This document shows positions 913 through 9,443 of a stretch of 12,262 bases of DNA, piece after piece; position 1 is the first letter of the stretch; the number at the start of each line of letters is the position of its first letter. The translations under genes were made by a program, and so were the position numbers. Where the stretch lies: assembly GCA_003512805.1 (NCBI GenBank), contig DOOK01000114.1, forward strand, positions 9,582 through 21,843. Direction: 5' to 3'. This DNA is from Erwinia sp. (GTDB lineage: Bacteria; Pseudomonadota; Gammaproteobacteria; Enterobacterales; Enterobacteriaceae). The notes beneath the pieces are model-generated. The model did not search any database. It saw nothing but the letters and a program-made list of their open reading frames with translations, and was not told where the DNA came from.

Positions 913-2123
913 CGACTACCTCGCGTAAACGCCTGGGCTTTTGCCAGACGCGTTTCATAATCTATGCGTAACAAAAATACGATGGCGGTGGACATAATTA
1001 TCAGGCTGGAGCCGCCATAACTGATCAACGGCAGCGTCAGGCCTTTGGTCGGCAGCATCCCCGCTGCCGCGCCCACATTCACCAATGCCTGGAAGCTGAA
1101 CCAGACGCCGATAGAGCAGCCCAGAAAACCGGCGAAGCGCTGGTCAAGTTCCAGCGCGCGGCGTCCAATAGACATCGCGCGAAAAGCGACGAAGAATACC
1201 ATTAACAGCGCTAAAACCACACCGATATAACCCAGCTCTTCACCGATAATCGAGAAGATAAAGTCGGTATGCGCTTCCGGTAAATATTCCAGCTTTTGCA
1301 CCGAGTTGCCCAATCCCTGCCCCCAGAATTCGCCGCGGCCAAACGCCATCAGCGACTGGGTCAGCTGGTAGCCGCTGCCGAAAGGATCTTCCCACGGATT
1401 CCAGAAAGAGGTAACGCGTCGCATACGGTAAGGTTCGGCAACAATCAGCAGGCAAACGGCGAAAATACCGGAGCCGATAATGGCCAGAAATTGCCATAAT
1501 TTTGCGCCTGCCAGGAACAACATCGCCAGCGTGGTCACAAACAGCACTACCACGGTGCCCAAATCGGGCTGTGCCAGCAGCAGAACCGCCAGCACTACCA
1601 TCACGCCCATCGGCTTACAGAAGCCCCAAAAGTTGTTGCGCACTTCCTCTACCTTGCGCACCAGATAGCTGGCGAGGTAGCAAAAAAGTGAAAGCTTGGA
1701 GAGTTCTGCAGGCTGGATACGCAGCGGGCCCAGCGCGATCCAGCGCGAGGCACCGTTTACCGAGCTGCCCACCACCAGTACGATCAGCAGCATCACCACC
1801 GTGACCAGTAGCATGATGTTGCTGTAGCGCTGCCAGAAAGCCATCGGTACGCGTAGCGTAACCAGCCCGATGCCGAATGCCAGCACGATGTAAAACGCGT
1901 CGCGCTTGGCGAAGTAAAAAGGATCGTCCGACAGACGCTGGCCTACCGGCATCGAGGCCGACGTCACCATCACGAAGCCAATAATCGCCAGGCCTATGGT
2001 CAGCCACAGCAGCGTACGATCGTAAAGCACCATGCTGCTGGCATCGCTCTCGCGCGGCCCCATCACCCACTCTTTCAGGCGTTCTGACAGCCAGCTGGCA
2101 ACGCTTAAACCCGGAACACGCAT
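909..2123 (-). CDS. ftsW: FtsW, septal peptidoglycan polymerase (SEDS family)
   Basis: Integral inner-membrane glycosyltransferase that polymerises lipid II at the septum in complex with FtsI (PBP3). It has 404 residues against 414 in E. coli; the difference is at the variable cytoplasmic N-terminus. Sequence shows about ten hydrophobic segments and the SEDS signatures: [11 protein letters not shown] (119-129), QPAELSK (137-143), QPDLGT (185-190), [15 protein letters not shown] (248-262), the long periplasmic loop with LPEAHTDF (281-288) whose Asp287 matches the essential E. coli Asp297, and [10 protein letters not shown] near the last membrane segments. The start codon shares one base with the murD stop (TGATG), and AAAGGAG lies 8 bases upstream, so translation is both coupled and independently primed. 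It sits beside murG and murD in the usual dcw order. No defect seen. Confidence 0.97.
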
Positions 2124-3439
2124 CAGCCCAGCTCCTTTGCCAGTCGAGTAAACACGTCGCCGCGCTGCTCAAAGTTTTTAAATTGATCCAGGCTCGCACA
2201 GGCTGGCGACAGCAGCACCATATCACCCGGCTTCGCTTGAGCCGCGATCTGCTGCATAGCTTCCTGCAGGGTTTTAGTCTGCTCTGCTTTTTCCGGGCGC
2301 AGTGTCGCCAGCGCGGCCGCATCCCGCCCAAAGCAGTACATTCTGATGTTATCGCCCTGTAAATAGCGCGCCAGCGGGCTGAAGTCGGCGGATTTGCCGT
2401 CGCCCCCCAGCAGTAGCCAGAGCGTGCCCTGCACGTCAAGGCCGTTCAACGCCGCTTCGGTGCTGCCCACGTTGGTCGCTTTGGAATCGTTGATCCAGCG
2501 GATGCCGTTACGCTCGTGCGCCAGCTGGAAACGGTGCGCCAGCCCGGTAAAAGTCGTCAGCGCTTTCAGGCTGGAGGCGCGGGGCAACCCGACCGCGTCA
2601 GCCAGCGCGAGCGCGGCCAGGGCATTGGTGAAGTTATGCTGCCCGACCAGCGTCATCTCGCCGGTATTTAATACTTTCTCGCCTTTCACCCGCAGCCAGG
2701 TACTGCCCTGTTGGCGCGTCAGATGATAGTCGCCGACGTCTACCCCAAAACTAATACAGCGTTTATCAACGCCGCGTACTGGCATGGTCATGGCGTCGTC
2801 CGCGTTCACAATGCAGACGCCAGCCTGCTCATAAACGCGCAGCTTGGCCGCACGATACTGCTGCATTCCGAACGGATAGCGATCCATATGGTCTTCCGTC
2901 ACGTTCAGAATGGTCGCCGCGGCCGCTTTCAGGCTGTGGGTCGTTTCCAGCTGGAAACTGGAAAGTTCCAGCACGTAGAGTTGTACAGGCTTATCCAGCA
3001 GCATCAGGGCGGGAAGACCGATATTGCCCCCCACGCCGACCTGCCAGCCTGCCGCTTTAGCCATCTCGCCCACCAGCGTGGTCACGGTACTTTTACCGTT
3101 CGAGCCGGTAATCGCCACGATCGGTGCCTGCGCCTCGCGGCAAAACAGTTCGATGTCGCCTACGATCTCTACGCCTGCTTTCGCCGCCGCCGTCAGTGAA
3201 GGATGCGACAGCGCGAGGCCGGGGCTGGCAACAATCAGATCGGCGCTCTGTAGCCAGTCGTCATTCAGCGACCCGAGCCAGCGTTCAACGCCCGCCGGCA
3301 GCTTTTCCAGGCCCGGCGGCACAAGGCGGGTATCCATGACGCGCGGCGTGACGCCGCGTGCTAAAAAGAAGTCAACGCATGACTGTCCGGTCAGCCCCAG
3401 ACCGATGATGACAACTTTTTTACCCAGGTAATCAGCCAT
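2123..3439 (-). CDS. murD: MurD, UDP-MurNAc-L-alanine:D-glutamate ligase
   Basis: Cytoplasmic ATP-dependent ligase that adds D-glutamate to UDP-MurNAc-L-Ala, the second amino-acid addition of the stem peptide. It has 438 residues, the same length as E. coli MurD. Domains: N-terminal UDP-binding Rossmann fold starting with GLGLTGQS (13-20); central ATPase domain with P-loop GSNGKST (112-118), ELSSFQLE (158-165), and [10 protein letters not shown] (179-188); Lys199 in YRAAKL matches the carbamylated lysine of the E. coli enzyme (198 without Met). The C-terminal domain carries AHRFQ, NDSKATN (317-323), GGDGKSADF and [17 protein letters not shown]. Two bases separate it from the mraY stop; an AAGG Shine-Dalgarno lies about 10 bases upstream of the ATG. 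All residues I would expect are present. Confidence 0.97.
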
Positions 3440-3441
3440 TA

Positions 3442-4524
3442 TTACCGCACCTTCAGCGTCGCCAGGCCAATCAGCACCAGCATCAGTGAAATGATCCAGA
3501 AACGAACAATAACGCGCGGTTCCGGCCAGCCTTTGAGTTCGTAATGGTGATGAATCGGCGCCATGCGGAAAATCCGCTGGCCGCGCAGCTTGAATGACCC
3601 CACCTGGAGGATCACCGACAGGGTTTCCACGACGAACACGCCGCCCATGATGACCAGCAGAAACTCCTGGCGCAGCAGCACGGCGATGGTGCCCAGCGCG
3701 CCGCCCAGCGCCAGCGATCCGACGTCACCCATAAAGACCTGCGCCGGATAGGTGTTAAACCATAAGAAGCCCAGACCAGCCCCGACGATGGCCGTACAGA
3801 CAATCACCAGCTCGCCAGCATGGCGCAAATAGGGAATATGCAGATAGTTAGCGAAGTTCATGTTACCGGTGGCCCAGGCAACCAGCGCGAAGCCGGCGGC
3901 GACAAAAACGGTAGGCATAATCGCCAGGCCATCCAGCCCGTCGGTCAGGTTTACCGCATTGCCGGTGCCGACGATCACGAAGTAGGCCAGCACCACGTAA
4001 AACAGGCCCAGCTGCGGCATGATGTCCTTGAAGAACGGCACCACCAGCTGCGTCGCTGGCGTGCCCTTCCCGGTGGCATAGAGCGTAAAAGCGACGCCCA
4101 ACGAAATCACCGACATCCAGAAATATTTCCAGCGAGCGATCAGCCCTTTGGTATCTTTACGCACCACTTTGCGGTAGCCATCCACAAAACCAATAATGCC
4201 AAAGCCCACCAGCACGACCAGCACGCACCAGACGTAAGGGTTGGATGGATAGGCCCACATCAGCACCGACACGGTAATGGAGAACAAAATCATGATGCCG
4301 CCCATCGTCGGCGTGCCGCGCTTGCTGAAGTGTGATTCCGGGCCGTCGTTGCGAACAACCTGACCAAAGGACATCTCCTGCAGGCGGGCGATCATACGCG
4401 GCCCCATCCACAGAGAGATAAACAGAGCGGTCAGCAGGCTGACGATGGCGCGAAACGTCAGATAAGAAAAGACGTTAAAGCCTGAATAAAAAGCGACCAG
4501 ATGTTCGGCCAGCCAGACTAGCAT
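3442..4524 (-). CDS. mraY: MraY, phospho-MurNAc-pentapeptide translocase, with Asp116 replaced by Gly
   Basis: Integral membrane enzyme that transfers phospho-MurNAc-pentapeptide from UDP to undecaprenyl phosphate, forming lipid I with Mg2+. It has 360 residues, exactly the E. coli length, and is almost identical through most of its ten membrane segments: [11 protein letters not shown] (66-76), [11 protein letters not shown] (191-201), the Mg2+ ligand Asp267 in MGDVGS, and [10 protein letters not shown] (321-330). The odd point is the DDxxK motif. The family reads GFVDDYRK; here it reads GFVDGYRK, so Asp115 is kept but residue 116 is Gly (codon GGC, plus-strand 4177-4179). Substitution of either Asp is reported to cripple MraY. 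The rest of the gene shows no decay, so either a single-base sequence error or a true variant must be considered. The ATG overlaps the last 7 bases of murF; AGGAG lies 8 bases upstream. Confidence 0.96.
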
Positions 4525-5879
4525 GTTCCTTTCTCCTGTAAGCTCTGTACTACCTGCTCCATGGCGGCACTACGTGAACCTTTGACTAAAATGGTGATCG
4601 TTGGCTGTTCCGCCAGCAGTATTTGCAGACGCGCCGTGACGGCAGCCTTATCGGTAAAATGTTCGCCCACGCCGCTGGCTTCGCTGATAAAGCGGCTTAA
4701 GCCGCCTACGCTAAGCACTTTGTCCACGCCAGCGCGGCGCGCCGCCTCGCCGACTTCGCGATGGCACGCTTCGGCTTCTTCGCCTAACTCCGCCATATCG
4801 CCAGTCACCATGACGCGGTAGCCTGGCATGTCCGCCAGCACCTGGGCCGCAGCGGTCATTGAGCCAACATTGGCGTTGTAGCTGTCGTCCAGCAGCAGCT
4901 GATTTTCTCCCAGCAGGATTGGGAAAAGGCGGCCCGGCACGGCTTCAAGTTTGCTCAGCCCCAGCTGGATCGCCTCAAGTGAAGCGCCTACAGAGAGGGC
5001 CAGAGCGGCGGCGGCCAGCGCATTAGCGATATTGTGGCGTCCCGGCAACGGCAGCTGAACAGCTACGCGACCCGCGGGCGTCTGCATCATAAAATGCGTT
5101 CCCGCGCTGGTAATCTGAATGTCGCTGGCAGAAAAATCGCTTTCTGCCTGTGGCTGAGCGGAGAAGCGCCACACCGTTTTGCCCTCCAGCATCGGCTGCC
5201 AGTTAGTCAGGTCATTGCTGTCGACGTTCAAAATGGCGGTACCGTTATCCGGCAGCCCCTGAAAAATTTCACCCTTGGCTTTAGCCACGCCCGCCAGCGA
5301 GCCGAATCCTTCCAGGTGGGCGGCCGCCAGATTGTTGACCAGCGCCGTTTCCGGTTGGACCAGGCTGGTGGTCCAGGCGATTTCGCCCTGATGGTTGGCC
5401 CCCAGTTCAATCACCGCAAACTGGTGCTTCGCGGTCAGACGCAGCAGCGTCAGTGGGACGCCGATATCATTATTAAGATTGCCGGCGGTATAAAGCGTTT
5501 CGCCGCACTGGCGCAGAATGGCAGCGGTCATCTCTTTTACCGACGTTTTGCCGGAAGAGCCGGTCAGCGCCACCACGCGCGCCGTGGATTGCTGGCGAAC
5601 CCAGCCAGCCAGCTGGCCCAGCGCCACGCGCGTATCGGCCACGATCACCTGCGGCACGGCAACAGGTAAGTGCTTACTGACTAACAGAGCCGACGAACCG
5701 GCGGCTATTGCCTCACCGACCAGCTCGTGCGCGTCAAAGCGCTCGCCCTTCAGCGCGATAAACAGGCAGCCAGCACTGACCTTACGCGTATCGGTAGTCA
5801 CCTCACTAAAGGTAAGGTCACTGCCCACTACTTCGCCATCGGTAATGTCCGCCAGCTTCTGCAAAGAGAGTGCGATCAT
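4518..5879 (-). CDS. murF: MurF, UDP-MurNAc-tripeptide:D-Ala-D-Ala ligase
   Basis: Cytoplasmic ATP-dependent ligase that adds the D-Ala-D-Ala dipeptide to UDP-MurNAc-tripeptide, completing the pentapeptide that MraY uses. It has 453 residues (E. coli 452). N-terminal substrate domain includes [20 protein letters not shown] (28-47); the P-loop is TGSSGKTS (106-113); the ATPase core shows [17 protein letters not shown] (158-167), [13 protein letters not shown] (182-194) and AKAKGEIF; the C-terminal domain has [27 protein letters not shown] (331-337) and [10 protein letters not shown]. The ATG overlaps the murE stop as ATGA, with a GGGGTGA ribosome-binding stretch upstream inside murE. Its end, TGCTAG, lies within the start of mraY, so the two are translationally coupled. 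Nothing unusual seen. Confidence 0.97.
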
Positions 5880-7371: not shown

Positions 7372-9114
7372 TCACTTATTGTCTACCAGTTCGTTTTTCT
7401 CAACGACCGGTAGCGCATCAGGTTCAATATTCATGGTGCGCAACACACCGCCCATAATGGCGCCAAACACCGGAGCCGAAACCGCACCACCGTAATATTT
7501 ACCGGCCTGGGGATCGTTGATCACCACAACCAGGGCAAAACGGGGACGGCTCGCCGGCGCCACGCCGGCGGTGTAAGCGATATATTTGTTGACGTAGCGT
7601 CCGTCCGGCCCGACTTTTTTCGCCGTACCGGTTTTAATGGCGATGCGGTAACCTTTGATGGCCGCTTTCACGCCACCGCCACCGGGCAGCGCCACGCTCT
7701 CCATCATATGCATGACGGTGCGAACCACTTCTTCAGAGAAAACGCGCTGTCCGCCCACCGGCGGATCGACTTTGGTAATCGACAGCGGGCGATACAGGCC
7801 GTAGCTGCCAATCGTGGCGTAGACTCGCGCTAACTGTAACGGTGTTACCATCAGCCCGTAGCCAAATGAGAAGGTGGCCCTCTCTATGTCAGACCACCGT
7901 TGTTTTTGGGGATATAAGCCACTACTTTCTCCGACCAGTCCCAGATTGGTCGCTTTACCCAGTCCAAAGTGCGAGTAGGTTTCTACCAGCGCCGAGGACG
8001 GCATCGCTAACGCCAGCCTGGAAACGCCGACGTTACTCGATTTTTGCAAAACGCCGGTCAGCGTCAGCTCGTTATAGCGGGCCACATCTTTGATTTCATG
8101 GCCATTAATACGGTAAGGCACCGTATTCAGTACGCTGTTTTCCCGCACCACGCCGCGCTGTAATGCGGTCATGACCACCATCGGCTTGACGGTGGAACCC
8201 GGCTCGAAAATATCGGTAATGGCGCGGTTTCGCATCACGTCTTTGGTCACGCCGGACAGGTTGTTCGGGTTATAAGCCGGGCTATTAGCCATAGCCAGCA
8301 CTTCACCCGTGTTGACATCCACCAGCACGGCGGTGCCTGATTCCGCTTTATTAAAGGCGACGGCATTATTCAACTCGCGATAGACCAGCGCCTGCAGGCG
8401 TTCATCAATACTCAGCGCCAGATTATGCGCTGCCCGGCTGTCTACAGAAGAGATGTCCTCAATCACGCGACCATGGCGGTCTTTGCGCACCGTTCGTTCG
8501 CCCGGCTCGCCCGTCAGCCATTTATCAAAACTCTTTTCGACGCCTTCAATCCCCTGTCCATCAATATTGGTAAAGCCGATCAGATGTGATGTGACCTGCC
8601 CTGCCGGATAATAGCGACGCGACTCCTCCCGTAAAAAAACACCGGGAAGCTTGAGCTTTTTGATGTAGTCGCCGATGGCCGGATTGACCTGACGCGCCAG
8701 ATAGACAAAGCGCCCTTTGGGATTGACGTTAACGCGAGCCGCCAGCTGATCCAGCGGAATGGAAAGCGCATCAGAAAGCGCCTGCCAGCGGCTATCCAAT
8801 GTGATGCCGCCTTTGGCATGCAGCTCTTTAGGATCGACCCAGATAGCATTGACCGGCACGCTGACGGCCAATGGACGGCCGGCACGATCGGTAATCATGC
8901 CGCGAGAGGTCGGGACGGCCTGAACGCGCAGCGAGCGCATATCGCCTTCCCGCACCAGCTTATCCGGATTGATTACCTGCAGATAAGCCATCCGCGCCAG
9001 CAGTCCGCCCAGCGCGAGTAAAATACAGCCGCACAACAACGCAAAACGCCAGCTGACAAAGCTGGCCTGATCTTCCTGACGTTTTGTCTTAAGCGTCTTA
9101 ACTGCGGCTTTCAT
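7372..9114 (-). CDS. ftsI: FtsI (PBP3), septal peptidoglycan transpeptidase
   Basis: Bitopic inner-membrane class B penicillin-binding protein that cross-links septal peptidoglycan with FtsW, FtsL and FtsQB; target of aztreonam-type beta-lactams. It has 580 residues (E. coli 588). A cytoplasmic tail and one membrane segment (about 22-42) precede the pedestal domain with [15 protein letters not shown] (71-85). The transpeptidase domain has all three catalytic motifs at E. coli numbering: STVK with Ser307, SSN (359-361), KTGT (494-497). There is no insertion after Pro333, so the known YRIN/YRIK resistance duplications are absent. It ends EKNELVDNK: the alignment stops at 580, three residues past the Val577 position where E. 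coli PBP3 is trimmed, so the usual cleaved tail is nearly missing. The ATG is 8 bases beyond the ftsL stop, with AAGGG overlapping that stop. Confidence 0.97.
7873..7931 (-). ncRNA. Candidate FtsO-like ORF-internal sponge RNA (RybB-pairing segment plus hairpin)
   Basis: Inside ftsI the minus strand carries AAAGTAGTGGC (7928-7918), which can pair with all of the first 11 bases of the sRNA RybB (GCCACUGCUUU, from memory) with one G-U wobble. Twenty bases further on is a hairpin with 8-base arms, GGTGGTCT (7898-7891) and GGGCCACC (7880-7873), two wobbles, a 10-base loop, then TTCTCATTT. E. coli has a RybB sponge, FtsO, made from within the ftsI coding sequence; I recall its existence but not its exact ends. 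The coding triplets here include ATA and AGG, rare in enterobacteria, side by side with GAG between, which fits RNA-level constraint. Only the 3' part is proposed; the 5' end is unknown. The RNA itself is an inference. Confidence 0.4.
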
Positions 9115-9122
9115 TTATGCCC

Positions 9123-9443
9123 TTATGGCTGTACCACAATATTTTCCTGCGAAGGATCAACATGCTGCATCTGCAGTTTTTCCATCGCCGTCCTTTCAAC
9201 ACGACTGTGATCGCCCAGCGCATTTTCTTCCAGAATGAGATTGCGCCATTCGATATCCAGCGCGTCGCGTTCCAGCACCAGCTGCTCGCGCTGCGCGGTG
9301 AGCAGGCGGGTTTTATGCGCCGTGGTCACCACCAGCACGGCAGAAACCAGCACGGCGACAGCCAGAATCAGCGGAATTTTGCCATGGCGTAAAAGATCGC
9401 CTGCAATCACGCCGGGTAAACTGTGTCGCTCGTTGCCAATCAT
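9123..9443 (-). CDS. ftsL: FtsL, divisome scaffold protein
   Basis: Small bitopic membrane protein that forms the FtsQLB complex and passes the activation signal to FtsWI at the septum. It has 106 residues: a cytoplasmic tail of about 22, one membrane segment (about 23-42), and a periplasmic coiled coil from about 43 to 75 rich in Leu and Glu ([20 protein letters not shown]), followed by [16 protein letters not shown] and the conserved end [15 protein letters not shown]. coli FtsL has 121 residues; the missing part is N-terminal. The start here is fixed because an in-frame TGA lies five codons upstream. The ATG overlaps the rsmH stop as ATGA. Its close match to E. coli beyond the tail makes the call secure. 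Confidence 0.96.

Follow-up and report, generated by a model that had tools for sequence, protein, structure and literature searches.

A glycine codon in place of the second motif aspartate of mraY in an Erwinia sp. contig: a probable one-base record error

Enzymes of the MraY family carry a pair of adjacent aspartates, Asp115 and Asp116 in E. coli numbering, and the question raised here is whether a bacterium has come to grow with an MraY that lacks the second of them or whether a single letter of a public record is wrong. In a 12,262-nt stretch of Erwinia sp. DNA from contig DOOK01000114.1 (hereafter the window), residues 115-116 of the predicted MraY read Asp-Gly, from the codons GAT GGC at 4182-4177 of the minus strand. 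An earlier note, made from the letters of this DNA alone, had offered either a sequence error or a striking natural variant as the explanation. The pair of options was well chosen, Gly116 being isolated and the rest of the gene intact; we consider a one-base record error the most likely explanation and rank a strain-private, weakened allele second.

The window and its mraY gene

The whole window is an ordinary mra/mur cluster, with its genes all on the minus strand. Read along that strand, it contains a start-less cra, followed by mraZ, mraW, ftsL, ftsI, murE, murF, mraY, murD, ftsW, and the start of murG; in plus coordinates the order of the open reading frames (ORFs) is murG(cut)-ftsW-murD-mraY-murF-murE-ftsI-ftsL-mraW-mraZ. 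The names mraY, cra, and ftsW are based on family searches, ftsI, murE, murF, and murD are also annotated features beneath the matches to plasmid records, and murG, ftsL, mraW, and mraZ were named by recognition and gene order. The mraY gene sits between murF and murD of the dcw cluster, with an identical order in 8 of 8 relatives. Coordinates of the features discussed are given in Table 1.

Table 1. Features of the window that bear on the reading of mraY codon 116
Feature	Positions	Strand	State	Basis
mraY, phospho-N-acetylmuramoyl-pentapeptide transferase, 360 aa	3442..4524	minus	frame intact	ORF, TIGR00445, PF00953
Codon 115, GAT, Asp, first of the DD pair	4180..4182	minus	normal	sequence
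Codon 116, GGC, Gly	4177..4179	minus	Asp in all relatives read	sequence, loci and protein hits
Codon 267, GAC, Asp, position of the Mg2+-binding Asp	3724..3726	minus	normal	sequence
HHH motif, last cytoplasmic loop (PIHHHYE)	3544..3552	minus	normal	sequence; unchanged in the 8g01_A alignment
murF, upstream of mraY	4518..5879	minus	intact; 7-base overlap with mraY	ORF, relatives
murD, downstream of mraY	2123..3439	minus	intact	ORF, relatives

G394 (locus L137) was the closest genome to emerge from the searches, at 90.9% identity to the window, with 12,259 of the 12,262 bases aligned in one piece with one gap; this value is the best from the genome contigs (best 80 of 585 matches) together with the genomes of the genus. 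G394 and G001 belong to the same genus, represented by 37 genomes, and Erwinia endophytica (G002, L003) and Erwinia mallotivora (G003, L002) are among them. The window would accordingly derive from Erwinia or a very close neighbour, and its species appears to be absent from the genomes searched. An exact 30-base stretch of the window spanning codon 116 had no match in viral_contigs, nor did a search of the same collection with MraY find one, and the 11 matches among plasmid records all lie below 80% identity to the window (76.5-78.1% for the 10 listed).

The window MraY scores 525.5 bits against TIGR00445 (cut-off 192.05), covering positions 1-321 of the 321 in the profile, 106.3 against PF00953 (cut-off 27), and 24.1 against PF10555 (cut-off 20.1). 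Enterobacterales MraY (TIGR00445; E. coli structures 8g01, 8g02, and 8tlu) are its orthologues and occupy the same cluster position. The alignment with E. coli 8g01_A runs from end to end, with Asp115, Asp267, and the HHH motif shared and with Asp at 116 where the window has Gly; in the MraY of Aquifex aeolicus (4j72), a member of the same family, the Asp-Asp of 4j72_A aligns with residues 115-116, both aspartates being kept. Viewed in terms of the DDD motif, the window protein has Asp115, Asp267, and the HHH loop motif, and the second Asp (116) is without a match, the codon there being GGC. On sequence grounds the gene is mraY by descent, but as recorded it is not classed as encoding a complete DDD-motif enzyme.

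The description of this gene in the earlier note was accurate. The codons GAT GGC for residues 115-116 were given correctly to the base, and the plus-strand C at 4178 is indeed there, as a minus-strand G inside codon 116, where a single transition would give Asp. The 360-residue protein is otherwise intact, as was stated: the ORF at 4524-3442 is unbroken, and Asp115, Asp267, and HHH are kept. To call it nearly identical to E. coli was fair, as it shares 93.6% identity with the MraY of an E. coli genome (L037).

Conservation of Asp116 and constraint on mraY

Asp115, Asp116, and Asp267 are present in 180 of the 180 mraY loci fetched, which represent 137 distinct MraY sequences with a lowest identity of 69.6%. 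Several genomes were entered more than once in this count; the set covers the 80 best-matching genome loci, every one of the 37 genus members, the best 30 of 296 matching genomes for the phylum, and the best 30 of 328 for the family. All 194 protein hits listed likewise have Asp-Asp; they come from two overlapping searches (the best 120 of 7999 and the best 120 of 422) of a database clustered at 90%, in which rare members could be hidden. The second search was focused on residues 98-138, to make any Gly116 protein rank high, and no such protein was among its best 120 of 422 hits. These counts bear out the claim that Asp-Asp is general in the family, and they speak against Gly being common at this position, an outcome that the earlier note had named as a refutation.

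Nucleotide patterns were also used. A 27-base degenerate pattern for DGYRKVVRK matched 0 of 394 genomes of the order, and the corresponding DD control, DDYRKVVRK, matched 116 of the 394, so that a pattern of this length detects only about 3 in 10 genomes, those in which the flanking codons or residues differ being missed. A short DG pattern with 17 specified positions matched 21 of 392 genomes of the family, and its reversed control 14. These 21 matches were rejected as Gly116 mraY genes: 14 of the places, when fetched, were without mraY (they complete the 194 loci fetched in all), and the remaining 7 do not coincide with the mraY position in the genome concerned. One MraY-like protein (P0002, 403 aa, on a 2762-base public contig) has its N-terminal part, DD motif included, tandemly doubled, which may be an assembly artefact.

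Between the window and L137, the mraY genes differ by 80 synonymous and 2 nonsynonymous codons. The latter are D116G and residue 139, which is Val in the window, Ala in L137, and Val in E. coli 8g01_A. Comparison with the relatives and with 8g01_A revealed no compensating change inside the window MraY.

Over ten genes and 3579 columns, D116G is the sole position at which the window breaks an otherwise invariant column, in a count that omitted matches with less than 60% identity or less than 90% protein coverage, columns with fewer than 60 sequences (the window included), and L144, which comes from the same genome as L001. Private breaks in the 87 relatives, over the same ten genes, number 3.26 each on average, with a median of 1 and a maximum of 33. 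The number of private breaks in the window is unremarkable, but the kind of break is not. All 21 private mraY breaks of the relatives have BLOSUM62 scores of 0 or more and none falls at 115, 116, or 267; the score for D>G is -1. Harsh private changes do occur in the relatives as well (50 of their 284 private breaks in the ten genes, gaps included among the 50, have scores of -1 or below), including losses of Asp in other genes (mraZ D149G in E. endophytica and murF D361Y in L009), so a lone harsh change does not suffice to prove an error.

A looser count, omitting matches with less than 60% identity, repeated identical sequences, and columns with fewer than 20 sequences, added FtsI codon 93 (Val in the window, Ala in 81 others, and Ile in 1) and MraZ codon 18 (Met in the window, Val in 77 others, and Ile in 1). 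These changes, ftsI A93V and mraZ V18M, are rare and both mild.

Within 30 codons of codon 116, the other window-only changes are synonymous and lie at codons 111 and 142. A>G accounts for 9 of 76 window-only changes and is not over-represented. At the site of codon 116 there is no long homopolymer, nor any GATC or CCWGG within 12 bases, and none of the ten compared genes of the window is broken. A literature search on read errors linked to methylation yielded a single paper, which concerns RNA modification.

A one-base error in the record

We assign a probability of about 0.7 to Gly116 being a single-base error in the deposited sequence, introduced in base calling, consensus, or assembly. We infer an error, instead of a real mutation, because Asp116 is invariant in the relatives read and mraY constrained, D116G being the lone column break with no change in a partner residue, and because frame damage, presumably error, occurs in the same panel of sequences. 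In that case the organism itself would encode Asp-Asp as its relatives do, and its MraY would catalyse the standard transfer of phospho-MurNAc-pentapeptide to undecaprenyl phosphate. Several points count against an error: the site carries no classical error signature, the remaining window looks clean, and A>G is not enriched; one harsh private change in ten genes is within the range of the relatives; and mutants of human DPAGT1, described below, make a weak but viable allele possible.

For the frame-breaking damage, seven cluster genes were compared across the 80 best-matching loci, and 2 of the 555 copies are broken; matches at or below 60% identity and copies that reach a locus end were omitted. 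One case is the mraY of Kluyvera genomosp. 3 YDC799 (L054; CP022114.1, labelled "complete genome"), at approximately 8353-9431, which is frameshifted near residue 293; intact copies are present in relatives of this genome, and the frameshift in this essential gene probably stems from an error of the sequence. The other is the ftsI of Pantoea sp. MAG Chal_Metagen_Bin9 (L012), at approximately 3769-5503, which consists of two overlapping frames with one stop and probably reflects an assembly error. Both breaks are presumably errors.

A further oddity among the comparison loci is the murE of L142 (genome G418), at approximately 7507-6193, in which about 56 codons (residues 395-450) are missing relative to the window and seven other relatives. 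In L143, which is close to L142, murE is whole. An assembly error is the likelier explanation of the gap, as a real deletion would be odd in an essential gene.

On the likelier reading, that of an error at codon 116, the locus illustrates that single-letter errors in public records can mimic the loss of an essential active-site residue. An isolated deviation in a constrained gene needs reads before biology, and Gly116 is as yet no basis for the latter.

The role of the aspartate pair and the alternatives to an error

An unlikely but serious alternative is that D116G is real, recent, and private to the strain. In this case Asp116 would serve to brace a loop, its replacement by Gly would loosen that loop and weaken MraY, and the enzyme would still make enough lipid I for growth, perhaps aided by higher expression or by suppressors elsewhere. 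Apart from codon 116, mraY is undamaged and in frame, as for a gene still in use, but no other residue is found at 116 in the relatives read, and MraY holds no change that would compensate. In addition, the E. coli D116N enzyme is said to have shown no activity in the work of Lloyd from 2004.

How far this alternative can be credited depends on what the second aspartate does. Two MraY papers name the pair as critical or essential (PMC6606608, PMC11117252). In a 2016 review, D98 and D99 of the Bacillus subtilis enzyme (E. coli D115 and D116) are among the residues proven catalytically important, and D98, the first of the pair, is proposed to deprotonate the lipid substrate (PMC5039524). A Mg2+-binding role of the pair, proposed by Lloyd and others, was challenged, according to a 2015 review (PMC4790310).

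For the A. aeolicus enzyme (MraYAA), one report both opposes and favours a viable Gly116 allele: D117, D118, and D265 are described as critical for activity, but Mg2+ is held by D265, and the five inhibitors with crystal structures make no contact to the Asp pair (PMC6606608). Mn2+ exchange likewise gave no metal contact to D117 or D118 in another study (PMC4902027). Two further papers, PMC11915815 and PMC12681378, contributed nothing on this point.

Human DPAGT1, also of the PNPT superfamily and with a pair matching Asp115/Asp116, shows a possible effect of losing the second aspartate and counts in favour of a real allele. In the report on this enzyme, the pair touches neither Mg2+ nor substrate; the residue matching Asp116 of MraY is structural, this Asp116 making hydrogen bonds to Ser57 and Thr253 and capping helix 8; and mutants of the pair to Asn, Glu, or Ala retained at least 10% activity (PMC6218659). 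These are laboratory mutants of a eukaryotic enzyme carrying Asn, Glu, or Ala, whereas the window has Gly. By analogy with them, the Gly116 MraY of the window could be weakened and not dead, and for this reason the probability of a real allele is put at roughly one in five. The earlier note had treated Asp116 as essential and its loss as near lethal; the first part agrees with the wording of the MraY papers, and the second, a near-lethal catalytic loss, could be an overstatement in view of the activity of the DPAGT1 mutants.

It is more doubtful still that a free-living bacterium related to Erwinia depends for growth on one MraY with Gly in place of the second DDD aspartate. Were this true, the protein would be the only natural enzyme of its family without Asp116 in the sets examined, and Asp116 would act in MraY as a brace, the part it plays in DPAGT1, and not in catalysis. 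A real base would amount to a natural experiment on the dispute between a catalytic second Asp, as in the MraY papers, and a structural one, as in DPAGT1.

It is very unlikely that the source was mixed or of low coverage (a population, a metagenome, or a contaminated culture) and that the base entered in the record belongs to a minority or damaged allele. The nearest relative found differs enough from the window over 12.26 kb that there is no close copy to compare, which leaves room for such an origin, but the one-piece alignment to L137 gives no sign of a chimera, and no odd changes cluster near codon 116, where the only ones are the synonymous changes at 111 and 142.

Least probable is that a second, intact mraY elsewhere has the function and that the window copy is starting to decay: records do show displaced or additional copies (3 of 5378 mraY-matching places in E. 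coli assemblies are on plasmid-classed records), but the 8 nearest genomes found carry one mraY each, plus one PF00953 gene elsewhere that is presumably wecA, and the window copy lies in its native cluster and shows constraint rather than decay.

The E. coli assemblies contained up to 3 mraY-matching places per genome. Eleven PLSDB records carry mraY or much of the mra/mur cluster, and several of the plasmid-classed records are megabase-sized; the plasmid-classed records with mraY are possibly mislabelled pieces of chromosome or very large replicons.
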